Below are positions 2,466 through 58,374 of a stretch of 64,000 nucleotides of DNA, piece by piece. Numbering within the stretch: position 1 is the stretch's first letter; each line of letters starts with the position of its first letter. The translations under genes and the position numbers were made by a program. Source of the DNA: Argopecten irradians (Eukaryota; Mollusca; Bivalvia; Pectinida; Pectinidae); NCBI RefSeq assembly GCF_041381155.1, contig NC_091135.1, positions 54,635,997 through 54,699,996 of the forward strand, in the 5' to 3' direction. The notes beneath the pieces are model-generated. The model was not told the DNA's origin. It worked only from the letters and a program-made list of their open reading frames with translations, and did not search any database.

Positions 2466-4137
2466 TCAAATTCTTTATTTGCATTAGGTATTTTAACTTA
2501 TTTGCTTTTTACAAAGAATAATATCAAAATACAATTAGCATACATACAGGATAAGTGGAGAATGGACAAAGCATTACATTAATGACTTTCTCAAAATAGT
2601 TGCATTATAAATATATTAACTAAGTAGATTTAATTAAAAATTTGGTTAATTAAAATACAGATGGTTTTTCCCAATAATGTCTTTTATAAATTTCTTTCTA
2701 ATATCTTGGTAAATTGGACAAATAAGAATAAAATGATATTCGTCCTCAATATCACGATGAGGGTCACAAAACTTACAAACACGCTCATTTCTATCTAAAT
2801 TTGAAACACGTCCAGATTCGATACACATGTGCCGATAACCTTATTTTTGTCAATACAATGCGATTTTTGTTTGGGATATACTTTGTCAAATATGTTTGTA
2901 AAACAACTTGATTCACCAGGTGACGATATAAATAGCACTTAGAAGAGTTTTCTAATATACTTGAAAAGCTATATCATTAATTCTTTGTTTGATTATTGGT
3001 AAAATATTTAAAGGAACAACTTTATGCTGGTTTACCCAAACATCACCAAAACCATGACTGTGCGATATATCTTTACAAATTCTACCCAATTAAATACATT
3101 GTTCGATTTTGGTAAATTCAATAAAACATTATAGTCAGTTTTTAAAATATAGTTATTAGAATTTATAATTTTCAACCAGTATTTTATCATTCTATACTTT
3201 CTGGTGTAAAAAAGAGGAAAAACGCCCAAGTTTCTTTTAACAGGTAATACCTTTTTACAGAATTCAAGCTGTACCTTTTCAATATCTGGAGCTTTACAGC
3301 CACACCAGACTGCCGATGCATAACTTAATATACTGTTAACATATGTATGAAATAAATTTAAAAGAGAAACAAAATTCATTTGCATAGATTTACATTTTGA
3401 AAACAAAGCAAAAACAGCCTTTCGCCCTTGTTCTGACAACTTTTTTTGTAATGTATTAAACTCATTATTAAATTTAAAAACAACTCCCAAATACGTAAAT
3501 TGGTCTACAACTTCCAGCTGTTTGTCATCATAAAACCAACAATCTTCTTTACGTAACTTGCTACTTTTTCTAAAAAACATTATTTTTGTTTTTTCTACAT
3601 TCATAGTTAGATTCCACGTTTCACAATAATTATGTAGGTTGTCCAGCATGCTTTGTAAATCTCTGGCAAATTCCGCATACAAAACTAAATCATCAGCATA
3701 CATCATGAGAAAAAGGCTTAACTCACCAAATTGGTAATAATTTACTACATGTTCTATAAAATAGTTTTCAAAGTCATTAACATACAACGAAAACATTATC
3801 GGTGACATAATTTCTCCTTGAGCGAGGCCCATATTGTTTACAAAAAAAATGAACATCTTCCATTTATGGTTACACAAGATTTTACTTGGCTGTATGTTGA
3901 TTTAATAGTTTTGAGTAAGTTTCCTCTAATTCCAAGCTGAGATAATTTAAACCACAATTTGCATCTATCTATAGAATCGAAAGCTCTTTTAAAATCCACA
4001 AAACAGCAAAAAAAGCCTTTTATTGTCATTAAGAGATTTAGTAATAATAGAATGGAGCACAAAAATAGCATCAACTGTACTTAATCCAGGGCGAAACCCA
4101 AATTGGGCATTAGTAACAACACTGTTTGATTCCGACT
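2466..4137 (-). mobile_element. 5'-truncated non-LTR retrotransposon (I/Nimb-like clade uncertain), RT and C-terminal part
   Basis: Read from 4137 leftward: NAQFGFRPGLSTVDAIF, FVDFKRAFDSIDR, QGEIMSPIMFSLYVNDFE, the catalytic YADD at 3689-3700, KTKIMFF, FTYLGV, SILSYASAVWCGCKAPDIEK. The carboxyl-terminal zinc-knuckle-like CKFC...EDEYHFILICPIY sits at 2646-2828. The reading frame shifts at least twice (around 3840-3877 and between 2830 and 3030), so it is dead. The 3' end is AATAAAGAATTTGAATATA at about 2466, like that of the fragment at 37,742. The break at about 4137 is a typical 5' truncation. Confidence 0.85.
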
Positions 4138-4594
4138 ATTGTAGTGGCGGTACATGCTCTTGCAAGTCCGGGATCCCATCCTAACTCGGGGGAAAGTTGG
4201 GTTTGAAGCCATGATCAGTGACCACCAAATATTTATAATTAGATCTAGGAATGGACAAGGATATTTATATTTTCAGGTTATTTCTAAAGGACACAAAATT
4301 AAGTTAACTGTTCAAATCCTAAACATGTCCATAATTTGAATATTTTGCAATTTGCTTTAATAAAAAATCCGTCTACATCCGTCCCTGTGTATTAGATCAA
4401 ATATTGCTGACAGATATGGTTCTTAATGGCTGATTAGAATTTAATCCTGATATATTCTAGCCCGGAATACCATTATGTTTTACATTGAATACAGTTACAT
4501 GTATATATATATATATCAAATGCAGTTATATGACAGTTATCAAAACATTTTAATAATGTTGCATTAAGTTATATTTGGAAAGTGAAAAAAATCA

Positions 4595-5129: not shown

Positions 5130-6400
5130 CATCAGATATTGCAAAAGAGTGAAAATATCAAAATTTAGGAAAAGTTGAAAATTTAAGAAAAATCGGATGA
5201 AAATTCAGGTATGATTCTGACATGTAAAATATTTCATGTGATATTCATATGTATCACACGCATGTTTTTCACAAGTAAATATAAATCATGCGATTCTCAT
5301 GTGTGAAATAAATGACATTAACGCATGAGATTCATGTGAAAATCACATGAAAATTGCCACGCATAATTTGCATGCGTGGCACTTTTGCCTGAGTAGTCCT
5401 AACCTTAGGTATGACTATGGACTCTTATATTGTTAAGTTGCCTGTAAATTGTGACAAAACATGCAAAACATTTCAGTTTAATAAGTCCACAAGGTTTGAT
5501 ACATATTCCTGTCATAAAATCACAATGCCTTTATGTTTACTGGTGCCATTAGCATGTACATGGAGCTCTTGTTTGATCAAATTCGACTTATCTAATCATT
5601 TATTGTCATCGGCTGTCGTCCTTTTGTGGTCATGCTAGTCTACCTTTACAGACAACAATGTTAGCTTTTCAGTCTATCATTACACTAACAGCCATGTTTA
5701 TATTGGTATAATGGTAAAGACAGTGGGTAAAAACTACAGGCTAACCACACCTAGCTTGTTTTCCTCTCTATGCTTGATACCAGACGATACAAACGCTGGG
5801 TTGACAGGATGGTAAGTAAATACCAGTACAACAATGACAAAATAATAGGCAATTACTATAAAGTCTACGGGTGTATACATATTAAAATCTTAATATCGAG
5901 GCGATTCCTAAACACACAATACATCAGTCATTTTCTCCAGTTCATTTCTCTCCGTCGACGTCAGTACCATGGCAGCGGTATTGTGTCTGTCAATACTAAT
6001 CAATAAAGTCGTTAACCAGGAAATTATACATACGGAATACATCTCAATAATTATTTCAGTCATATCAGCAAGAAATGAATAATTTGATAATACGACTGTT
6101 TTCGCATCAATTGGTTTGTAAAAAGCAAGCCACAATCAAAGAATACGATACAAAGACTGTTGGGCTCCTAGACAACTTTGTGATATGCCAAACTAGTGTT
6201 TAATTATTATTCTATAAATAGATGCATCACTAAGATCTATACTTACCGATGTACATGTATCTATTACAAAGCCATTACAAATATTTTTGTTTACAAGTTA
6301 AGATAATAATTTTGTGTACAAACAGTTATAGAGTATTATGAAAAACAAGGTAAATACAAAATGTAGTCTAGTTGATCGACATGTCATGGTATGTCAGTAA
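5130..6400. other. No gene seen; short hairpin
   Basis: AT-rich. A small hairpin GCCACGCATAATTTGCATGC-GTGGC lies near 5357-5381, in a tract with many CATGTGA/TCACATG words. No exon recognised. Confidence 0.45.
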
Positions 6401-6405
6401 ACACC

Positions 6406-6891
6406 AACAACATGGTCATGTGAGTATAGGACAATTGTAAAATAAACATCAACAACAGGGTCATGTAAGCATAGGGCAATTGTAAATAAACATCAACAAC
6501 AGGGTCATGTGAGCATAGGACAATTGTAAAATAAACATCAACAACAGGGTCATGTAAGCATAGGACCATTGTAAAATAAACATCATCAACAGGGTCATGT
6601 GAGTATAGGACAATTGTAAAATAAACATCAACAACAGGGTCATGTGAGTAAAGAATAAACGTCAAATAAACACCAACAACAGGGTCATGTGAGTGTAGGA
6701 CAATTGTATGATAAACAACAACAGGATCATATGAGTATAGGACAATTGTTAAATAAACATCAACAACAGGGTCATGTGAGTATAGGACAATTGTAAAATA
6801 AACATCAACAACAGGGTCATGTGAGTACAGAATAACCGTCAAATAAACATCAACAACAAGCTAAGGTCATGTGTGTATAGGACAAGTGTAT
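6406..6891 (+). repeat. 45 bp minisatellite, about 11 copies
   Basis: Unit AACAACAGGGTCATGTGAGT then ATAGGACAATTGTAAAATAAACATC. Some units are shortened. Because 45 is a multiple of 3, the minus strand stays open for 152 codons (6842-6384) as a repeating ~15-residue block YSHDPVVDVYFTIVL. I judge this an accident of the period. Confidence 0.95.
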
Positions 6892-26320: not shown

Positions 26321-27680
26321 TTAAACAGGTTTACCTGTGCTCACCTGTGTCAGCGTATATATATAATATAGTGCATAGAGTGTCCAAACAAAAGTCGCGT
26401 AGAACAAGTTTCCTTTAAATCGAACACAATTCATGTTATGTTCATCCATAGACTGACACATTAATCAAATGGTGCAACATGTCTAATCATTAGTACCCAC
26501 TTGTAAATGATGGAATAAGCAAGTCTTCTACCGCCGATCCTATGTGCGTCAAGTCAGGTAGTCCGCCATTGAAGAAATAGTTTAATTACAAGTAGTAACG
26601 ATATTGTTCTCGTAAAATGTATAATCTGTCTGCTAGCGATCAAAGTTATACTTATTGACAATCCCTTTGATACCATTCTTTTTATCCAGAATTACTACGT
26701 TTGTTTGATCGTTCTGTTTTTTTGTTTTTTGTTTGTTTTATCGCTGTTTGAGACTGTATTGTTAGTTTTGAAAGAGGTAGAATCGGCTGTATGACGTCTC
26801 TAAATAACTGTTGAGTTCTTGATTTAGAAGTACGATATACAAAATTCAATGCCAAGCTTTTCAGAGCAAAGATATTAAGCGTAGTGACATTTTAAACGTA
26901 GATGTACCTACCGCTCTGACAACTCATTATTATATTTTTTTTCTGACTTCTTAAAAGATCTCAACTTGAATACCATTATGATTATTTCATCATGTTTTAT
27001 AGTTCATATACAAATAGCTTTTATAATCTATGCTAAAGTTAGTGTTAAAGAACTAATCAATATCATATTGTTATTCAGGAAATGCGAATAAACAGCCATA
27101 TGAAAATCCCGTTCTTAAAGTGTTTTTTTTTATCTAACTTACTGAAAACTAACTTTCTTTCACGGCTACTACATTTCGCGATTTCTCTTTCAAAGCAAGT
27201 TAGCGGAAATTAAGTTCCCCAGATTTAAAAGTGAATGTGAATGAAGACACTTTTAAATTGAATTTTGTGCAAGAAATATGGAGAAAAAAAACCCGCAGAG
27301 ATAAGCTTTTAAAATTTAACTTGGTCGTGAAGATCGTGAAAATAAATTACACGCGAAATAAAGTTCGTTTACAGTAGTTCCATGTGAATATAATTGTTTG
27401 TTTTGTATAAATAATGAACACTACAATTGTATTTGCTGTTAAATAATGTATTTTTTCATATTTTGAAAGTCGTTGCAATTCATTAGAATATACATTAGAA
27501 TATACATGTATTTTAAACATGTATAACATATAGACTATTCACAGCCGTATTCAATTGTACGTCTCAGTTATTAAGGTATATCCGAACAGTATTTTTGAAC
27601 ATGAGAATTTCATTTGATAACGTTTCTCACAATCTTGAAAATTCCCGCATAATTGATTTACACCAATGTCAACATAAAAA
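26321..27680. other. No gene seen
   Basis: Sequence between the 5' end of the CR1-like LINE and the 25 bp minisatellite. AT-rich; only the small dispersed repeat at 27280-27370 was recognised. Confidence 0.45.
27280..27370 (-). repeat. Dispersed AT/CG-motif repeat, copy 2
   Basis: Inverse of the copy at 19206-19300: GAACTTTATTTCGCGTGTAA on the minus strand, followed by TTTATTTTCACGATC and TTTTTTTCTCCATA. Confidence 0.5.
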
Positions 27681-28893
27681 ACAATTACTACACAACGTAT
27701 GTGGAACAATTACTACACAACGTGTGTGGAACAATTACTACACAACGTATGTGGAACAATTACTACACAACGTATGTGGAACAATAACTACACAACGTAT
27801 GTGGAACAATTACTACACAACGTATGTGGAACAATTACTACACAACGTGTGTGGAACAATAACTACACAACGTATGTGGAACAATTACTACACAACGTAT
27901 GTGGAACAATTACTACACAACGTATGTGAAACAATTACTACACAACGTATGTGAAACAATTACTACACAACGTATGTGGAACAATTACTACACAACGTAT
28001 GTGGAACAATTACTACACAACGTATGTGGAACAATTACTACACAACGTATGTGGAACAATTACTACACAACGTATGTGGAACAATTACTACACAACGTAT
28101 GTGAAACAATTACTATACAACGTATGTGAAACAATTACTTCACATTCTTCACATCGTATGTGGAACAATTACTACACAACGTATGTGGAACAATTACTAC
28201 ACAACGTATGTGGAACAATTACTACACAACGTATGTGGAACAATTACTACACAACGTATGTGAAACAATTACTATACAACGTATGTGGAACAATTACTTC
28301 ACAACGTATGTGGAACAATTACTACACAACGTATGTGGAACAATTACTACACAACGTATGTGGAACAATTACTACACAACGTATGTGGAACAATTACTAC
28401 ACAACGTATGTGGAACAATTACTACACAACGTATGTGAAACAATTACTACACAACGTATGTGAAACAATTACTACACAACGTATGTGGAACAATTACTAC
28501 ACAACGTATGTGGAACAATTACTACACAACGTATGTGAAACAATTACTACACAACGTATGTGAAACAATTACTACACACAACGTATGTGGAACAATTACT
28601 ACACAACGTATGTGAAACAATTACTATACAACGTATGTGGAACAATTACTTCACAACGTATGTGGAACAATTACTTCACAACGTATGTGGAACAATTATT
28701 ACACAACGTATGTGGAACAATTACTACACAACGTATGTGAAACAATTACTACACAACGTATGTGGAACAATTACTACACAACGTATGTGGAACAATTACT
28801 ACACAACGTATGTGAAACAATTACTACACAACGTATGTGGAACAATTACTTCACAACGTATGTGAAACAATTACTACACAATGTATGTGAAAC
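27681..28893 (+). repeat. 25 bp minisatellite, about 48 copies
   Basis: Unit ACAATTACTACACAACGTAT then GTGGA or GTGAA. The period is not a multiple of 3, so each frame cycles through the unit in 75 bases and reads NNYYTTYVEQLLHNVC.. repeats. The GTGGA form has no stop in any plus frame; the GTGAA form gives TGA in one. One unit at about 28139-28158 is distorted and one near 28577 has two extra bases. Confidence 0.97.
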
Positions 28894-29147
28894 AATGCAA
28901 ACTAATGTAAAATAAATGTGCAATTGTTAAGAATTTTACTAATACTTCAGATGTCAAAAAACACGCAAACTGATCTCAAACAAAAGTACATTACAACTTA
29001 CAAGCTTAAGTTTACTAGCAAGTAATCAAATCGTTTTTCTTCAAGAAATCAACCAATAAATAAATGAAAACAGTCAAATAAATGATAGTAATATAGGGAA
29101 ATACTTACCACCATCATTCAGCATTTGACTTCTGAACTAAAATCTTT

Positions 29148-45465: not shown

Positions 45466-45919
45466 CAGGTACTTGTAGACATGAGTATGTCTATATCATT
45501 ATTTTTATTTTTGTTAAAGAAAATTTGTTATGTAATAGTAATTTAAATATGTTAGAATTACCATGTTCCTTATGAGAAATGCTAACAACGATAATTACAA
45601 ACATATAATATATAAACGCACGTATCTCGGCCTGATAAATACTTTTATTTATTAGGCCGAGATACGTGTCTTTTTATATATGAAGCATATGTTTGTAATA
45701 TAATATATAAACGCACGTATCTCGGCCTGATAAATACTTTTATTTATTAGGCCGAGATACGTGTCTTTTTATATATGAAGCATATGTTTGTAATTATCGT
45801 TGTTAGCGTTTCACATATGGAACATGGTAATTCTAACATATGTAAATTACTATTTCATCACAAATTTTCTTTAAAAAAAATAATGTAGACACATTAATAT
45901 TCATGTCCACAAGTATCTG
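45466..45919. mobile_element. Foldback element, ~454 bp, long inverted arms with a duplicated inner hairpin
   Basis: The left arm (CAGGTACTTGTAGACATGAG.., GTTAGAATTACCATGTTCC) and right arm (GGAACATGGTAATTCTAAC.., ..CATGTCCACAAGTATCTG) are inverted copies over about 150 bases. The centre holds a perfect-looking hairpin (ACGTATCTCGGCCTGATAAA / TTTATTAGGCCGAGATACGT) present twice in tandem with 95 bp spacing (45616 and 45711). No coding capacity. Target duplication not visible. Confidence 0.8.
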
Positions 45920-46380: not shown

Positions 46381-49300
46381 ATGGCATCCAATTTTGACGA
46401 TGACCAGGCGGGTAAGTTGTTTTTGTGTATTTATTGTTTTCTGAATTCATTTCGGCCATTTATTTTGTATGTCAACGTTACGTTGAGATATACAGAGATG
46501 CTATTTTGCAATTTGAAGATATGGTTATTCATTTGAAAGCTCGAAACATCTATAAGATAAGGTACATGTAACCTTGTTTTGACAAAAATTATCGTATGTG
46601 TCACATGGGTTGTCGTTACTGAATGTTTTTCCATAATAAGAAATTTGGTGATAATTCTATTCAGATGAAAAACTTCTATTAAATCAGATGGATTGATATT
46701 TAGCCTATTGTTAATAGTCTACCGTCTCACTTATTTATCCAACACAATGGTTTCCTTCAACAAAGTCGGGGGTGGTCTCAAAAGCTTATTTGATGTACTC
46801 GCGTGTAAACCTACTAATTAGTGCCATTTCCTGAATGGACTTGTTCTGACACGAGCTTACCTTAACTGGAATCAGTTCAAGTGGGTCTGTCAGTCGTGAA
46901 AACAAACAGTACCGGAGACAGAACTTGTTTACGAAATAATCAGGAGTTAGATTTTGGTAAAAAGACTGACTAGTCATCATGAGTGTCAGTGTTTGCTGTA
47001 AGTATGTCAAAAGAATATTTTAAGGTTTCTTGAATTTTGATTCATAATGAATGACGGCTTATTTTCAAATTAGGTACATGTGTGATTGATATGGTGACTT
47101 GTACATGTAAGTTTTAATTTCTCTGTGTAATCTGATTAAACTACAGATCCTTGTAATTATAAACACTCTGTTGATAATAAGTATGTTTTTTTTGTCTTTT
47201 TAATTAATCTTTCCAAATTTTTCTTTCTTTTATCTACTTATGAATATATATACATGTCATGATGTATATTGTGAAATGGGTTTGTCTAATCTAAATTTGT
47301 AGACTATAAATTAAAAAGATAATAACTGCTATATTAATTATTTGAAGGAATTTTAACTACCTTATAAACAATTTGTTGTAAAGGTTGGTTCTGTCACCCA
47401 GTGATTTTTTAGGTGCTTTTGGGGCTGAATAAAGGCACCTTCCCTTAGAGAAATAATTTTGTTAAAGGTTGGTTCTGTCACCCAGTGATTTTTTAGGTGC
47501 TTTTGGGGCTGAATAAAGGCACCTTCCCTTAGAGAAATAATTTTGTTATATTTTGCCAATTTTATGTAAATATTTTCCTAAATGAATAAAAAAAATCTTT
47601 GAAATGTACACTTTCAAGAACAATGTAATGTAGTATTCTCCCACTTGTAAAGGTACAGGCCCCTGAAATTATTGTAAGAAATCACTGTAAAGTCATCATG
47701 GCTTAGGTGACAGGCCTATAATGATGTTTTTTTTTACATGTTTACAATAAATATATATATATGAGCATAGCCTTTTTAAGGTCATACATTGTCTCCTGCG
47801 TGTGCAGTACATATCTACAGAGATCAGACATAAGTATTCAGACACGCCATATTTTACTATAATAATAATGATATTGTATTAACGCATTTTGACAAATTTT
47901 CAATTTTTATCATGATTTTGTTTTTAACCAGATTTTCTTGAAATTGTTCTTTATTTTCTTCAGATATGTTTGAATATTTCTATTGACTGTTTTTATTTGA
48001 AATAGATGATTACAATTTACAAACAGTGTAACAAAACTTTGACGTCCATTTGGTATTTGATCTTACTTCATAATTCCACTGGCCAGCAAAATTTGAAATG
48101 TAATTTTAAGATCCAACAACCTCTCTTGATAAAAACTATTGAAAATTATACAAAAATTATCTTATTTTTCAACATTAATATGAATTTAAGGAAAATTTTT
48201 GAAAAGCGAACCATGGTCAGTGAAAGTAAAAAAATCATTTTTTTAATGCATGGAATAGGATATAACATTAAAATATAACGTGTCCAAATACTTATGTCCA
48301 GTTTCCAGAAAGTTTAAGAAAACAGATTGTTTTATCAAATTAAATTGTTAAATTAAGCACTACATTATGTAAGATAGATATCGTTTTATCCCTTTCAAGG
48401 AACAGTTTCTAAGAACAATGTTGTACTTTCAGATGGTATAGAACCGATGGATTTTTCTTTCCATGAAGATGAAGATCTTGCTGTTTCTAAGTAAGTTTCA
48501 ATCGGACTATCAGGGCTGAACTATGTAGCTGTTTATCGGCAAATTTCTTGACAGAAATGCAGCTTAAATGCTTTTCCTTCACCTAAAAGCTATATCGATA
48601 AAACTTTAAGGTAATCAAATGCATCCCTCGAGCTCATACCAATTGGTTGTGTCTGAGAGCAATGAAACAAGAATATCAATTGACAAATAATGTAGACTTC
48701 CACGAAAAGAAAGTATGCGAATGGAATATCTAATTAATCATGATCACTTTAATTAACCTCTGACCAGGCATGAAACTCATTTCATTCTGTAAACCTGAAT
48801 ATCACTATATAATGTGTGCACCAAGACTGTGTATTTAAAGTTTGTATACACTCCTATGTGTTAATACAATAATTACAAAGAAGATAAGCATTTGCATTGC
48901 TCCAAATCGTCTGAGTAAAACATGATCCACATTTTGTTGTTTCAGTTCCAATGCTGTTGATACCAAATTTGATGAGACAATCGGACATGTAGAAGATATA
49001 ATTATGGGTAAGTCTGGCTATGGAAGCTGAATGATTTATCATGATAATATTCCATTTATTTTCACTATCACTGTCTGAACTTTTTTACAGCGCCGTTACA
49101 ATAAGCGTATATGTGACGGCCAGTCTAGTTGGTGGTTCCGTTGATTGGTAGCTAGTCAGTTTGCATGGTAGCTAGTCAGTTTGCCAACGACATTCAATAA
49201 GCTGTGTAAGCGCGGCTCTCATTGGCTGTCGCTTCAATGTAGGGGTGGAGCTAAACAGTCGGAAATGTCTGTCGGCGATTACCAAGATCAGAAACATGTA

Positions 49301-51352
49301 CTGACATGTACCAGTAAGCATCGTAAGCTTCATAATGTAAAAAGACTACACAAATACATTTTAATTACCTCATGTATAGACTCTGAATCAGCGCTACTCA
49401 GTGAAGTACGTATGGAAAGAGCTAATGTTGTAGCAGAAAAGTCAGTCGGAAGTTGTACGGAAAAGAATGTTTTTTATTTGTGACATTGGTCATCAAACTT
49501 TTACCTTCGTTGTGAAGACAACTTCTACATGCTTTACTCCTTCGTATTCTTATACTGTCTGGGCCCAGTTTGAATGTTTCCTTTACTTAAGTTCTGTAAT
49601 ACTTTCCAGCGGTGAAGCTCTAAGTTAAGAGATACTCATGACACTAAATCCTGGCCATTACTACTACTACTAGTCTGATGACAGTGTACTCACCATATAG
49701 TCATTGACATATGACATCAGAAATATTTACTGGTTATGTGTAACATAATCCTTTTCATCATGGACTTTTAGTTCAAAATAATGTTGTTGTATCACTATGG
49801 AGGCAAACATTATCTTTACAAACTTTCCTTGTAGATGAGGACTTCCAGAGAATACAGACAGAGTTTATGGAGAAATATTATCAGGAGTTTGATGACACAG
49901 AAGAAAACAAATTTATTTACACAGATATCCATAGAGAATATGTAAGTTATATACAGTGTATACTGAATACGCATGGAGAATATGTTAAGTTATATACAAT
50001 GTATATACATACAGATATCCATAGAGAATATCCTAGTTTAATGTTTACAAATATCCCTAGAGAATATGTAAGTTTTATATATACTGATATCCATAGAGAA
50101 TATCTAAGTTTTATATATACTGATGTCCATAGAGAATATCTAAGTTTTATATATACTGATATCCATAGAGAATATCTAAGTTTTATATGTATTGATATCC
50201 ATAGAGAATATCTAAGTTTTATATATACTGATATCCATAGAGAATATCTAAGTTTTATATGTATTGATATCCATAGAGAAAATATGTATAGAATACGTAA
50301 GTTTTATATACACACATTATCCATAGAAAATACAAACCATTCGTGTGTGTACTGATTTTAATGGATATTAAGCAAGTTTTTTCCCCTTTTTACACAAAGT
50401 ATAGACAATATGTTAGTTACTGATCATGAATAGAATGTATTCAAATGCTTCCTTGTTATGAACAGGTTCAATTAATAGAGAAGCACTTAGATGATGAGCT
50501 CACGAAACGCATGCCAGGATTTTCCATGGGTGAATTTACACATCAAATTATGTAAGTACCAGTTATTGCATGTACTATATATCAAACTATGTACCACATT
50601 ATACCTGATAAAGGGACTAGTATCTCCAGTGGTGATGGAACGTAACTCTCTGTAATCTTTCCTCTGAAATGACATTAGTCTGGTACAATTTATATCATCA
50701 TTTAGCATCATTCCATCACCAATAGAAGCAATAGTCCCACACAAAGTTATCAGGTATCACATGGTACATGAATTAGTCCAATTGGCTTCGTCTCACCAAC
50801 TGAATTCAGTATTCTGTTGGCATATTGACCAATGTAAAATGTAAAGTGTACAATGAAGATGTATTAATCTGTTTGATATCATAAAAATGATTTGTTTTTC
50901 TCCTGACAGGGAAAGAAAAAATGAGCTGGAAGGCGAGATATTTGAGATGTTGCTAACATTTAGTGACTTTATGGCTTTTAAGGAGATGTTTCTTGACTTT
51001 AAAGCAGTAAGTGCATTTTTTTTGACAAGGAAACATTTTGTTGAATTTGAATTTAAATTTTGACAATGAGATAATATGATTAAAAGTAACTTCTGTGTTA
51101 ATATCTCTAGTTTGTGTTCATTTAACATAACTTATGAATAGATATGAAGAATTTACAAAGTTTTTAATTTGTCTTTATTAGGACAAAGAAGGACGAACAG
51201 TAGACCTAAGTGCCGGAATAATGGTGACATCAATGCAGGGTGGTGGTGACGACTGTGGCGACATGGTTGGAGATGAGGGAGGCATCTCATTAGATGACTG
51301 TACTTTTTCTTTAACAGGACATTCCTTTGGGGACGGCCCAGAGCAGAAATAG
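46381..51352 (+). CDS. ARL2BP: ADP-ribosylation factor-like protein 2-binding protein (BART), complete, 7 exons
   Basis: Effector that binds GTP-loaded ARL2 (and ARL3) and is linked in vertebrates to centrosomes, cilia and mitochondria (family knowledge). Coding exons: 46381-46411, 48433-48490, 48946-49007, 49835-49941, 50466-50551, 50910-51006, 51182-51352. All introns are GT-AG with GTAAGT donors, and phases chain exactly to 612 nt, giving 203 aa. The BART domain covers about residues 34-154: EDIIM at 46-50, KYYQEFDDTEENKFIYT at 64-80, LLTFSDFMAFKEMFLDFKA at 129-147, then KEGR. These match the human protein (163 aa) almost block for block. The N-terminus is about 17 residues longer and acidic. 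The C-terminal tail (155-203) is Gly/Asp-rich and not conserved with vertebrates as far as I recall. The start is the first ATG after a short leader (MASNFDDDQA). Intron 4 carries a minisatellite copied from the exon 4 end. A tRNA-Gly lies upstream on the other strand. Confidence 0.96.
46412..48432 (+). other. ARL2BP intron 1
   Basis: GT-AG intron of about 2.0 kb with donor GTAAGT and acceptor ACTTTCAG. Apart from the 84 bp duplication it is AT-rich sequence in which I see no exon, RNA gene or recognisable element. Confidence 0.7.
47381..47548 (+). repeat. 84 bp tandem duplication in ARL2BP intron 1
   Basis: Two essentially identical 84 bp units starting AAGGTTGGTTCTGTCACCCA at 47381 and 47465. 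The near-identity suggests a recent event. The unit length is a multiple of 3, which explains the small open frame across it on the minus strand; no protein is suspected. Confidence 0.9.
49008..49834 (+). other. ARL2BP intron 3
   Basis: GT-AG intron of about 830 bp. An open stretch of 100 codons at 49181-49483 has no recognisable domain and no convincing splice sites. A short direct repeat (GGTAGCTAGTCAGTTTGC) occurs twice near 49147-49184. I see no gene inside it. Confidence 0.6.
49919..50345 (+). repeat. 36 bp minisatellite built from the ARL2BP exon 4 end and its splice donor
   Basis: About ten units of 36 bp (core GATATCCATAGAGAATAT followed by an AAGTTTTATATATACT-like half). The first unit is the real end of exon 4 (codons DIHREY) plus its GTAAGT donor at 49942. 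Later units are copies of that exon-intron junction. Most have CTAAGT in place of GTAAGT. One at about 50068 keeps an intact GTAAGT. The array stays open in the exon 4 reading frame up to about 50352. Confidence 0.92.
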
Positions 51353-54087: not shown

Positions 54088-57000
54088 CTAACGGCCGATA
54101 AAGATATCACACACTGCTCTCCGACAGCAGTCGTTACTGGGATCAACCTCCAGACGACATCCTGGGGGCGCTGTGGTCAACGTCTCCGAACACGGGGTCC
54201 TGTAATACATTACAAACAAAGGTTATAAATAAGGATATGGGAGTCGCACCGCAATGGAAATAATGGTTTATTGTGTTTATTACTCGATCTACCCAAGATA
54301 CACTTAAAGGGCCTTAATTGCACAAACGTGTGTTGCGAAGATCAATGTTTTGACCTGTCTCACAACAATGACACAAAGAAAATAAATGCTGCTGCCCGCT
54401 GATCTCTCGTACATATGTTCCTGGCAAAAGACACCAATTGGTACACTGGAAAACGTCTTCCTTGAAGAGTTATTAATGTCATTTCCTCCACCTGGGGCCG
54501 GCTTTCCAGTTCTCATTAGGCATAGTTTCTCTTATTTCATCTTGCCCACAATATTTAAAATCATATATTCTCGGAGTAGTAAAGAAGAAACAAAGCCAAG
54601 ACAAGATAATTTTAATCATTGCCGTTTGACCATTTGTAATACAGAGCTGTACACTATCTCAATCTGTATTTAGTTGTTAAAGACAATTTCATGTAGAATA
54701 AACTAAGCTGCAAATGTGCGGTTTTGATGGTCTTTGTATAATAATTCATTTTACTGTAATTCGCTTACAAAACGTAACATGGTGACAACTTAAATTCAGG
54801 GTTACATGTAGGTTTTACATAACAAACCTTTTATTACAGGTGAAAAATCCCGTGAAGGCATTTTCACAGGAACAGGTTAATTCGCATCCCTCTGACCATT
54901 TCTCGCCTTGTTCGTAGATCTGGCCCTTGTACTCACAATGGCCTAAAGCGCAAAAGCAGAAATCATTCATTGTATATCTCAAACTTTAAGTAAAACATTT
55001 TATCTTTATTTCGCAAGTGTTCACTCACAGAAAAATATCTTTGCTACGAAATGATGTAATGTGTAACACGCACGATTCGTTACTAAATAAATATACACAT
55101 GTAAAAAAAAAATCTGAAAATGAGATAAATAGTGGAATGTTTGATAACCCGTACAACCAAGTAAAATGAAGTCTGTGAAAACATACGGAATCTTGTACTT
55201 ATTTCTATTTAATTTCAATCACTACGGATTTGTATAAGTTGTAAGCACTCCTTTGCATATTATTTAAAACCAAAACCTTTTTGAGGAAAATTACATGGCC
55301 TATGCTGGCAAGCCAAGTTGTCATTTATACACTGAGCAATCTAATGTCTATCTAAAATACATCAATAGTATATAACATCTTATGCATACATATCTTTTGA
55401 ACAAAATAGATATTGAGTGTTGATAATTTAAGATATTTTATATCGTTTAAGATATATTATCTGTATCTTTCAGAAGGTAAATATATCTTATATAATCTTG
55501 GATCAACATTGCTCTGTGAATAAATGACAACTTGGTTTGTCGTCGCAAATAATCATCAATATTTAATTATATAAGAAATGCTGCCATTCATTCTGTATAC
55601 TAATTCAGAAAGAGGGCGTTATTAAGTTTTATAACCCAATTTCCGATTTTTTTCATTTGAATGTTTCAGATAAAATATGTTAAAACTTCTAAACGTATCA
55701 GTCTCACATCTAAACACGCCAAATTAACACATAAACATTCACATCTAAACACGCCAAATTAACACATAAACATTCACATCTAAACACGCCAAATTAACAC
55801 ATAGACATTCACATCTAAACACGCCAAATTAACACATAAACATTCACATCTAAACACGCCAAATTAACACATAACATTCACATCTAAACACGCCAAATTA
55901 ACACATAAACATTCACATCTAAACACGCCAAATTAAACACATAAACATTCACATCTAAACACGCCAAATTAACACATAAACATTCACATCTAAACACGCC
56001 AAATTAACACATAAACATTCACATCTAAACACGCCAAATTAACACATAAACATTCACATCTAACACGCCAAATCAACACATAACATTCACATCTAAACAC
56101 GCCAAATTAACACATAAACATTCACATCTAAACACGCCAAATTAACACATAACATTCACATCTAAACACGCTAAATTAAACACATAAACATTCACATCTA
56201 AACACGCCAAATTAACACATAAACATTCACATCTAAACACGCCAAATTAAACACATAAACATTCACATCTAAACACGCCAAATTAACACATAACATTCAC
56301 ATCTAAACACGCCAAATTAACACATAAACATTCACATCTAACACGCCAAATTAACACATAACATTCACATCTAAACACGCCAAATTAACACATAACATTC
56401 ACATCTAAACACGCCAAATTAACACATAACATTCTCATCTAAACTCGCCAAATTAACACATAAACATTCACATCTTAACACACCAAATTAACACATAAAC
56501 ATTCACATCTAAACACGCCAAATTAACACATAAACATTCACATCTAAACACGCCAAATTAACACATAAACATTCACATCTAACACGCCAAATTAACACAT
56601 AACATTCACATCTAAACACGCCAAACTAACACATAAACATTCACATCTAAACACGCCAAATTAACACATAAACATTCACATCTAAACACGAAAATTAACA
56701 CATAAACATTCACATCTAAACACGCCAAATTAACACATAAACATTCACATCTAAACACGCCAAATTAACACATTAACATTCACATCTAAACACGCCAAAC
56801 GCCAAACTAACACATAAACATTCACATCTAAACACGCCAAATTAACACATAAACATTCACATCTAAACACGAAAATTAACACATAAACATTCACATCTAA
56901 ACACGCCAAATTAACACATAAACATTCACATCTAAACACGCCAAATTAACACATTAACATTCACATCTAAACACGCCAAACTAACACATAAACATTCACA

Positions 57001-58374
57001 TCTAAACACGCCAAATTAAAACATAAACATTCACATCTAAACATGCCAAATTAACACATAAACATTCACATCTAAACACGCCAAATTAAACACATAAACA
57101 TTCACATCTAAACACGCCAAATTAACACATAACGTTCACATCTAAACACGCCAAATTAACATTCACATGTGGTAGATTTAGGTAAGGTGCAGGTATTATC
57201 AAATAGAAAACACTATTTATGTTTCATGTTTTTAAAATACATTAAAAAAATAACGACAAAAAGACCGTTTTCGTTTTTACGGTTTGACTGGTTGGGCCGT
57301 TTGTAAAAGTATTTCAACTATAAACCTGACGGACCTTCAGATTTTGACATGGGCCTATAAAGGCTTTGTCAACGTTCGTCTGAAAACATTAAAAAGCGAA
57401 TGACTCTACTAGGTCCAACCAATCAACCTGTATAAACGAAAACGGCCTTAGTCATGAACTGATGGCCTCCCTTGGTCTACGTGACCGGATATGACATGTG
57501 TCTTGACTAAGGTGTAACTGTTATATATAGAGCAGAACTGATACTTGTGGAAATAAGTCTACCCTATAATTCAATACAAATGTAATAATAGGTAAAATTA
57601 TTACATTCCCAAACCTTCTAAAATATAATTAAATCTTTATTCTTTATTAAATCTTCGAAGTATATCTATTTAGTCTTTGCCTGTAAAATGGTATCCCATA
57701 CCGAAAATAAGTATCCTCTGTTTTGTGTTTGATATAAGCTATGTAATTTGGCATTTCCCTCTTAATTTTCGTGGTTTTATATAGGGATTTTTTTCGCAGA
57801 AAATCGTATCCTACCAGCAAGTAAATGATTTATATCAAGATTTGAAATAAAGAGGAACGTGCGTTAGTAAATTTTAATAAAAAATAATGATATTTTAAAA
57901 ATGAACCAGCAGAGAAAATAAGCCAATATGATAAGGTAGGAAGTCATAAAATGTTCCATCTTTATTCAATAGTTGGTTTAATCTTACCTTGTCCAGTGTA
58001 CTCTCTGTTAGCTGGAACTGCATTAGCTGAAATGCAACGATTTGTAAAAGATGTTTAAAACAAATTTACTTTAAAATAAAGACACTTTTTTTAATATGAT
58101 GTGATGACACTCATTTGGTGTTTTTTTTTTCATTGTAAAGCCGCCCTAACACTGTAGTGAGAAAAGTTTTAAAAAAAAAAAAAAAGAAGAAACAAAACCC
58201 CCGCGCAATCTATTCATGGGTTGTTTCCATTTATAAATCTAATCAAATGGCGCCAATATGAAATATCAAAATGAAAGACCAACATCATTTGTTTTTAGTT
58301 CGGAATATATTTGATGACTTACCTGTGTGCCACAGCACAACACAAACCACAAAGCCAGCTAATGTTCGGATCAT
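54088..58374 (-). CDS. Small secreted protein with a single von Willebrand factor C domain, complete, 4 exons
   Basis: Exons in transcription order: 58374-58323, 58026-57988, 54942-54828, 54199-54088. Phases chain exactly (1, 1, 2) to 318 nt, giving 105 aa. Residues 1 to about 20 are a signal peptide (MIRTLAGFVVCVVLWHT). The mature part is one cysteine-rich domain with ten cysteines at 33, 50, 54, 56, 66, 72, 83, 93, 94 and 99, including CELTCSC and a terminal CCRRAVC. This is the ten-cysteine VWC pattern of BMP-binding and matrix proteins, and resembles short single-VWC secreted proteins. Donors of exons 1 and 2 are GTAAGT/GTAAGA; exon 3 uses the weaker GTTTGT. The exon 2-3 intron (about 3 kb) contains a 35 bp minisatellite. 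The gene is convergent to ARL2BP. A TATA box and a CRE lie upstream. Function is not known: a BMP/TGF-beta modulator, a matrix protein or an immune effector are all possible. Confidence 0.88.
55705..57168 (+). repeat. 35 bp minisatellite, about 42 copies, in the VWC gene intron
   Basis: The unit reads CACATCTAAACACGCCAAAT followed by TAACACATAAACATT. Length varies between units by one base in A-runs, with a few internal deletions and one GCCAAAC duplication. It lies wholly between VWC exons 2 and 3. Units are too uniform and lack spacers, so it is not a CRISPR array. Confidence 0.97.
57261..57449. mobile_element. MITE/foldback element, ~190 bp, in the VWC gene intron
   Basis: The left arm AAGACCGTTTTCGTTTTTAC and the reverse complement of the right arm AAGGCCGTTTTCGTTTATAC agree over about 35 bases, including GGTTGACTGGTTGG/GGTTGATTGGTTGG. 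The interior is unrelated. There is no coding capacity, so this is a short non-autonomous DNA element. The target duplication is not clear. Confidence 0.7.

Follow-up and report, generated by a model that had tools for sequence, protein, structure and literature searches.

The ARL2BP locus and the array in its fourth intron

The stretch of DNA examined in this work, referred to below as the window, consists of 64,000 nucleotides from the genome of Argopecten irradians (C2:54635997-54699996; genome 845.8 Mb, 1508 contigs) and it contains a gene for ARL2BP. With a human query sequence, pieces of this protein were located in order and all on the + strand at 48929-49006, 49816-49956, 50460-50540, 50908-51006, and 51182-51235. 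Exon 4 of this gene shows similarity to the BART domain (Pfam PF11527, E value 7.9e-10, over the cut-off) and to the ARL2BP chains 2k9a and 3doe in the PDB (E value ~1e-8), and both the BART domain and the exon order of ARL2BP are present at the locus. The sequence FIYTDIHREY at the end of this exon aligns with LIYTPIFNEY in the ARL2BP structures 2k9a and 3doe, LSYTPIFNEY in 2k0s, and LTYTEIHQEY in CFAP36. A protein search of the genome gave two matches, both within the present locus, and it revealed no second copy of the ARL2BP gene. The features of the exon 4 to exon 5 region are as follows.

49835-49941, + strand: ARL2BP exon 4 (107 nt), from which the repeat unit derives; C-terminal end ...FIYTDIHREY; matches to PF11527 BART and to 2k9a/3doe
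49942-50465, + strand: ARL2BP intron 4, beginning with GTAAGT
49942-49947, + strand: native donor GTAAGT of intron 4, 9-mer TATGTAAGT
49959-50001, + strand: degraded first copy, donor position GTTAAG; alignment score 25, reached by 0 of 2000 shuffles
50002-50289, + strand: eight in-register 36-nt copies, 30 exon-derived nt and 6 donor-derived nt in each
50068-50073, + strand: intact distal donor GTAAGT with the native 9-mer; predicted to add 126 nt in frame
50290-50332, + strand: tail copy, out of register; score of the tested piece 50303-50345 reached by 0 of 2000 shuffles
50297-50302, + strand: second intact GTAAGT, TACGTAAGT; predicted to add 355 nt with a frameshift and an early stop in exon 5
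50389-50419, + strand: possible older junction copy (weak); score 18, reached by 4 of 2000 shuffles and, elsewhere in the window, by 6 of 1053 pieces
50466-50551, + strand: ARL2BP exon 5, VQLIEKHLDDELTKRMPGFSMGEFTHQI

The array overlaps the 5' splice site of a coding exon, its unit being composed of 30 nt from ARL2BP exon 4 and the first 6 nt of the intron (GTAAGT). It was detected by TRF at 50004-50280 (period 36, 7.7 copies, 90% matches), and a repeat search grouped the exon copy (49912-49953) into a single family with eight intronic copies, spaced 36 nt apart from 50002 to 50254. Together with the degraded first copy and the tail copy, the intronic copies number ten, in accordance with the estimate of about ten made in an earlier sequence-only reading of this DNA. 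The 36 nt of the exon copy are matched at 32 positions in three of the five middle copies and at 31 and 30 in the other two; elsewhere in the window, ungapped alignment gives 23 of 36 at best, and the longest exact identity between the exon and the intron is 21 nt. Six occurrences of the 18-mer GATATCCATAGAGAATAT were found in the 845.8 Mb genome, all at the ARL2BP array, and none of the reversed word. The amplification of the junction itself, which was the central claim of that reading, is hence supported by TRF, by the repeat family and by the unique 18-mer, and its identification of the exon as the source of the unit is upheld by the conserved FIYTDIHREY alignment to the ARL2BP and CFAP36 structures. 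As judged from these alignments, the exon side of the unit is conserved protein and its exonic part encodes BART-family residues. An origin from a dispersed repeat was also considered and was rejected, as the 18-mer is found at this locus alone.

The degraded first copy matches not only the exon end but also about 18 nt of the intron past the donor, and because of this an early duplication probably extended further than the unit does now. The triplet ACA is common to the exon and the two most proximal in-register copies, the later copies having ACT or ATT at this position.

The 64-kb window as a whole gave 35 TRF rows, which in part overlap. These include minisatellites with a 25-bp unit (27680-28896, 48 copies) and a 35-bp unit (55704-57161, 42 copies), and two tandem duplications with two perfect copies each, of 84 and 95 bp (47379-47548 and 45603-45794), which are apparently very recent or an effect of assembly. 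The unit of a 45-bp array at 6398-6890 includes the near-donor word CATGTGAGT (8 of 9 positions of the consensus), and no upstream exon was obvious there by reading.

Donor sites, reading frames and coding constraint

At the position of the donor, the eight in-register copies read CCTAGT, GTAAGT (at 50068), CTAAGT in five cases, and ATGTAT, and GT is therefore absent from seven of the eight. Among the five CTAAGT copies, three share the whole 36-nt sequence; that at 50110 differs by one base and that at 50182 by two. Because of this identity, a single G>C change that was spread by the array would most simply account for these copies, rather than repeated loss. The earlier statement that most copies read CTAAGT thus holds for five of the eight in-register copies, but the loss of GT that it described appears to be a single event. 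Intact GTAAGT is present in more than one unit, viz. at 49942, at 50068 and, in the tail copy, at 50297, the last of which had been missed when 50068 was named as the one donor retained. The 9-mer at 50068 is identical to the native TATGTAAGT, that at 50297 is one base off, and all three match CAGGTAAGT at 7 of 9 positions.

Use of the donor at 50068 is predicted to add 126 nt, corresponding to 42 open codons in frame, as had been proposed, and use of that at 50297 to add 355 nt, leading to a frameshift and a stop in exon 5. In a straight read-through the frame of exon 4 is open until a TGA at 50353. The open frame that had been reported through the array is confirmed to this extent, but within the units it is built in, because 36 nt equal 12 codons and the source unit is without a stop. 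In the reading favoured here, the distal donors at 50068 and 50297 are by-products that may be used at a low level.

In comparison with the array consensus, the in-register copies show 18 nonsynonymous and 4 synonymous changes (18% synonymous), the expectation from the 90 possible single changes in the ten exonic codons being 15 synonymous changes (17%). The copies thus behave as would be expected where protein constraint is absent, and they give no sign of coding constraint; owing to this ratio, a coding role for the array is not the reading that we favour. All three differences between the exon and the array consensus in the exonic part are synonymous, which would follow from constraint on the exon, although the changes are few.

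The junction lies near position 50 of the 116-position BART profile (PF11527), and not at the end of the BART helix bundle where the sequence-only reading had placed it. It aligns with residue 70 of 2k9a, 71 of 3doe, and 63 of 2k0s, and with residues 57 and 59 of two CFAP36 chains. In CFAP36, Lys58, Val61, Leu65, and Leu69 of helix alpha3 are reported to help in forming the groove for the N-terminal helix of ARL3 (PMC4635315). From these alignments, an insert of 42 residues would interrupt the BART domain at, or immediately ahead of, the residues of alpha3 that line the ARL groove, and it would probably harm ARL binding.

Donor words in tandem arrays across the genome

The occurrence of donor words in tandem arrays was examined by counting the places where three copies of a word are present at gaps of 12-42 nt. 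These counts are of overlapping units and not of arrays, and large arrays weigh more in them. The word AGGTAAGT was found in 6785 such places genome-wide, versus 896 for its reversed control (7.6x), and with narrower gaps in 1156 versus 384. Its single occurrences number 52563 versus 45462, and 12.9% versus 2.0% of them are in triples, giving a per-occurrence excess of 6.5x. These unit counts are heavy-tailed, the matches listed for AGGTAAGT coming from two arrays. For AGGTGAGT, 3651 places were found versus 867 for the reversed control (4.2x, units); single words number 27765 versus 16647 (1.67x), and 13.1% versus 5.2% of them are in triples, a per-occurrence excess of 2.5x. The word AGGTATGT gave 8585 places versus 3008 for its reversed control TGTATGGA (2.9x in units, without normalisation for singles). 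In contrast to these words, the anagram word GATGAGTA gave 436 versus 691 for its reverse, and the one acceptor word that was searched, TTTTCAGG, showed no excess genome-wide (295 versus 848 reversed, 0.35x).

When distinct arrays are considered, 11 were present for AGGTGAGT among the matches listed, which cover the first 41.3 Mb of C1, and as two of these are near inverted duplicates, ten are independent. Among the matches listed for the other words, there were 14 distinct arrays of TGAGTGGA in about 297 Mb (three of them within the 41.3 Mb AGGTGAGT stretch), 14 of GATGAGTA in 242 Mb, and 18 of TTTTCAGG in 369 Mb. With the ten independent arrays, the rate for AGGTGAGT exceeds that for TGAGTGGA by a ratio of 5.1 (P 0.0003), or 3.3 (P 0.046) when both are counted over that 41.3 Mb stretch, and the corresponding ratios are 4.2 versus GATGAGTA and 5.0 versus TTTTCAGG. 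Donor words in tandem arrays thus exceed their reversed controls genome-wide, the size of this bias being rough, and a bias toward transcribed regions may contribute to the excess.

Arrays that begin at exon donors

The donor-side flanks were read for 14 AGGTRAGT arrays, consisting of ten of the 11 AGGTGAGT arrays and four AGGTAAGT arrays among the matches listed. The AGGTGAGT array at C1:30.36 Mb, a near inverted duplicate of that at 30.13 Mb, was left out, and L092 is not counted among the 13 resolved arrays, since its sequence stretch stops short of the start of the array. Based upon exon calls made by eye, 11 of these 13 arrays (L020, L047-L055, and L091) begin where an acceptor-bounded open exon ends, and in these 11 the unit carries the exon end with its donor. 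In the other two, L017 and L056, reading of the flank placed the array start elsewhere than at an exon donor. The exonic share of the unit ranges from about 5 to 44 nt across the AGGTRAGT arrays; the row for L051 in this comparison starts from an unrelated upstream AGGTRAGT. The array that includes L020-L046 (C1:2890660-2897056 and beyond) has a 41-bp unit and extends over more than 6 kb, with dozens of AGGTAAGT copies that constitute near-identical donors. L017 (C1:1.10 Mb) is a 48-bp array of palindrome-like CCTAACTAATACACTGTATTAGGT units in which AGGTAAGT and AGGTTAGT variants are mixed, and no adjoining exon was seen there by reading.

Among the exons called in this manner, that at L091 is of the SNF2 family (PF00176, E value 9.8e-7, over the cut-off), with matches to SMARCA-type and other SNF2 chains, and its 29-nt unit, made up of the donor and about 24 nt of exon, bears a close likeness to the ARL2BP array. 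The L051 exon matches UreF over the Pfam cut-off (E value 5.3e-5). Weak Pfam matches were observed to laminin G for L048 and Oscp1 for L055, a weak match to a glucose transporter for L049 (E value 0.1), and a match to DUF885 alone for L050 (E value 0.18). The exons of L047, L052, L053, and L054 had no match in Pfam, and the apparent exon end at L020, GLLLSYMLMKELTKQKGRINWFMFYFYRFWR, had none in Pfam and PDB searches. Family support is weak or absent for seven of the 11 exon calls.

The word AGGTATGT was chosen before its flanks were seen, and six of the seven arrays listed for it were examined, that at C1:27.27 Mb, with a unit resembling that at 27.24 Mb, being left out. Two of the six begin at an exon (L095, Ig, and L097, Mind bomb, both over the Pfam cut-off), and flank reading found no exon at the start of L093, L094, L096, and L098. 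By means of an exon score, which was designed after the arrays had been seen, array flanks were also set against those of 14 control arrays and of 20 isolated occurrences of AGGTAAGT. A score of at least 0.84 was obtained for 11 of 13 arrays (a set that includes ARL2BP but not L091), for 8 of the 20 isolated words and for 2 of the 14 controls, and the scores of 12 arrays were above those of the isolated words (P 0.0025) and of the control arrays (P 0.0004). This score gives false positives, as L093 and L094 pass although judged non-exonic, and it departs from the reading by eye for L056, which passes, and L052, which fails; we therefore give it no weight by itself.

Origin of the array and alternative explanations

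Taken together, we consider it probable that the ARL2BP junction was tandemly duplicated to give a tolerated intronic minisatellite and that this array is a member of a recurrent, donor-seeded class. In the proposed course of events, a short segment across the exon 4/intron 4 junction would have been tandemly duplicated and then expanded within the intron. The first junction would still end exon 4, so that splicing at 49942 would yield a normal mRNA and the extra copies would leave with the intron; we infer this native splicing, the neutrality of the array and the order of these events from the arrangement described above. An array of this kind would be tolerated because the first junction keeps the exon end and the copies are removed with the intron. 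When an acceptor is duplicated, the first AG that is met would tend to be the wrong one, and this fits the absence of an excess for the acceptor word. The similar arrays at other genes suggest that donor copying is recurrent in this genome, and the ARL2BP array would belong to a class of minisatellites that are seeded on 5' splice sites and grow into the intron. Tolerance alone is insufficient to explain an excess over ordinary intronic words, for which exon-end mutation hotspots, array-rich transcribed regions and favoured extra donors are the options; the last is disfavoured for ARL2BP because GT has been lost in most copies. We propose tentatively, with somewhat less than even confidence, that 5' but not 3' splice sites are hotspots of minisatellite birth here, and that perhaps hundreds or more genes carry ladders of near-identical donors.

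At the ARL2BP locus itself, regular use of the donor at 50068 would produce an isoform with 42 additional residues. The identity of its 9-mer with the native donor and the open frame of the 126 nt speak for such a functional exon, and downstream donors can compete, the canonical product of human DOK7 being reported to come from the intron-proximal of two 5' splice sites (PMC5585400). However, the copies are without a sign of coding constraint, the insert would lie within the BART domain, at the alpha3 groove residues or immediately ahead of them, and the intact donor at 50297 would cause a frameshift, and we regard such an isoform as unlikely. We favour instead the tolerated intronic minisatellite, because the ratio of 18 nonsynonymous to 4 synonymous changes fits an absence of protein constraint. 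The suggestion that the array supplies a decoy and an alternative exon length in one step is retained for the decoy, which has the native 9-mer, but this ratio, the frameshift and the position near alpha3 all argue against a useful longer exon. The reverse order, in which an AT-rich minisatellite arose first and the exon end and donor were drawn from it, could be suggested by a 36-bp array on C7 that has ATAGAATATCTAAGTT, within two bases, in common with the ARL2BP array. However, conserved BART-family residues are encoded in the exonic part, no other locus of the genome has the 18-mer, and the C7 matches (68-69%) are between two arrays of equal period, which inflates their scores, making this order very improbable. 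The AT-rich core and the period that the C7 array has in common with the ARL2BP array were treated as chance or remote.

With regard to the genome-wide excess, it is distinctly possible, if on the doubtful side, that no hotspot is involved and that transcribed regions are array-rich or a few large arrays dominate. The heavy-tailed unit counts, with the listed AGGTAAGT matches coming from two arrays, are consistent with this, as are the AGGTATGT arrays (two of six at exons), the high count for the reversed control TGTATGGA itself, and the greater abundance of AGGTGAGT as a single word. Against it, the distinct-array rates for AGGTGAGT are 3.3-5.1x those of TGAGTGGA, GATGAGTA, and TTTTCAGG among the matches listed, and acceptors are also transcribed, yet the one acceptor word TTTTCAGG is without an excess. 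Selection could also keep donor arrays, e.g., if extra U1-binding sites aid transcription or shield the intron. Many of the listed arrays retain AGGTRAGT in many copies, although the search criterion itself demanded AGGTRAGT, but at ARL2BP the GT has been lost from seven of eight in-register copies and we consider selection quite improbable.

Relationship to known systems and significance

The minisatellite of the human IFI6 gene has a unit of about 12 bp. Turri, Cuin, and Porter reportedly described in 1995 that this minisatellite provides multiple splice donors. Two downstream repeat units of this minisatellite (6-16, G1P3) have been reported to act as donors, giving rise to three mRNA species (PMC4526556). 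Both IFI6 and ARL2BP have a minisatellite at the 5' splice site of an exon and units with donor sequences; however, the extra donors of IFI6 are reported to be used, whereas those of ARL2BP are predicted from the sequence and most of its units are without GT. Variable internal tandem repeats at exon-intron boundaries are also described in human segmental duplications (PMC2812944), where minisatellite units of about 30 bp at the boundaries have changed gene structure. As reported there, these occur in association with genes of recent duplication and with new introns that transcripts support, in contrast to ARL2BP, which is a single locus in the protein search with its array in an existing intron. 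In a potato RdRp gene, an intron was reportedly gained by tandem duplication across an intron-exon (acceptor) boundary (PMC4974935). This case resembles ARL2BP in that the tandem duplication crosses an exon/intron boundary and that splice signals lie in the duplicated segment or close to it, but it concerns an acceptor and a new intron, whereas in ARL2BP it is a donor that is present in many copies, without sign of a new intron. Taken by itself, the ARL2BP array is thus a new case of a known kind, represented by IFI6 and the human boundary repeats. A literature search of open-licence PMC papers, mostly at the level of titles and abstracts, found no report of a genome-wide excess of minisatellites at donors, and the putative donor-biased recurrent class looks new.

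Competition among 5' splice sites, and the choice that results, has been investigated in constructed duplications. In native arrays of near-identical donors, the length, number and frame of the units vary by gene, and the rules of position could be read from ordinary RNA-seq. If they are as proposed here, such donor ladders would amount to natural experiments on the selection of one site by the spliceosome where several are identical. A donor-sided bias would point either to a mutation process at exon ends or to tolerance by splicing, and donor-sided birth of arrays would add a route for intron growth and for shifts of exon ends. Lastly, a 36-bp array of about 33 copies (C7:4753000-4760000, ~3190-4329) was observed beside an apparent exon acceptor, TTTGTTAACAG; its unit contains TTTGTTAACAC, and it is possibly an acceptor-side counterpart of the arrays described above.
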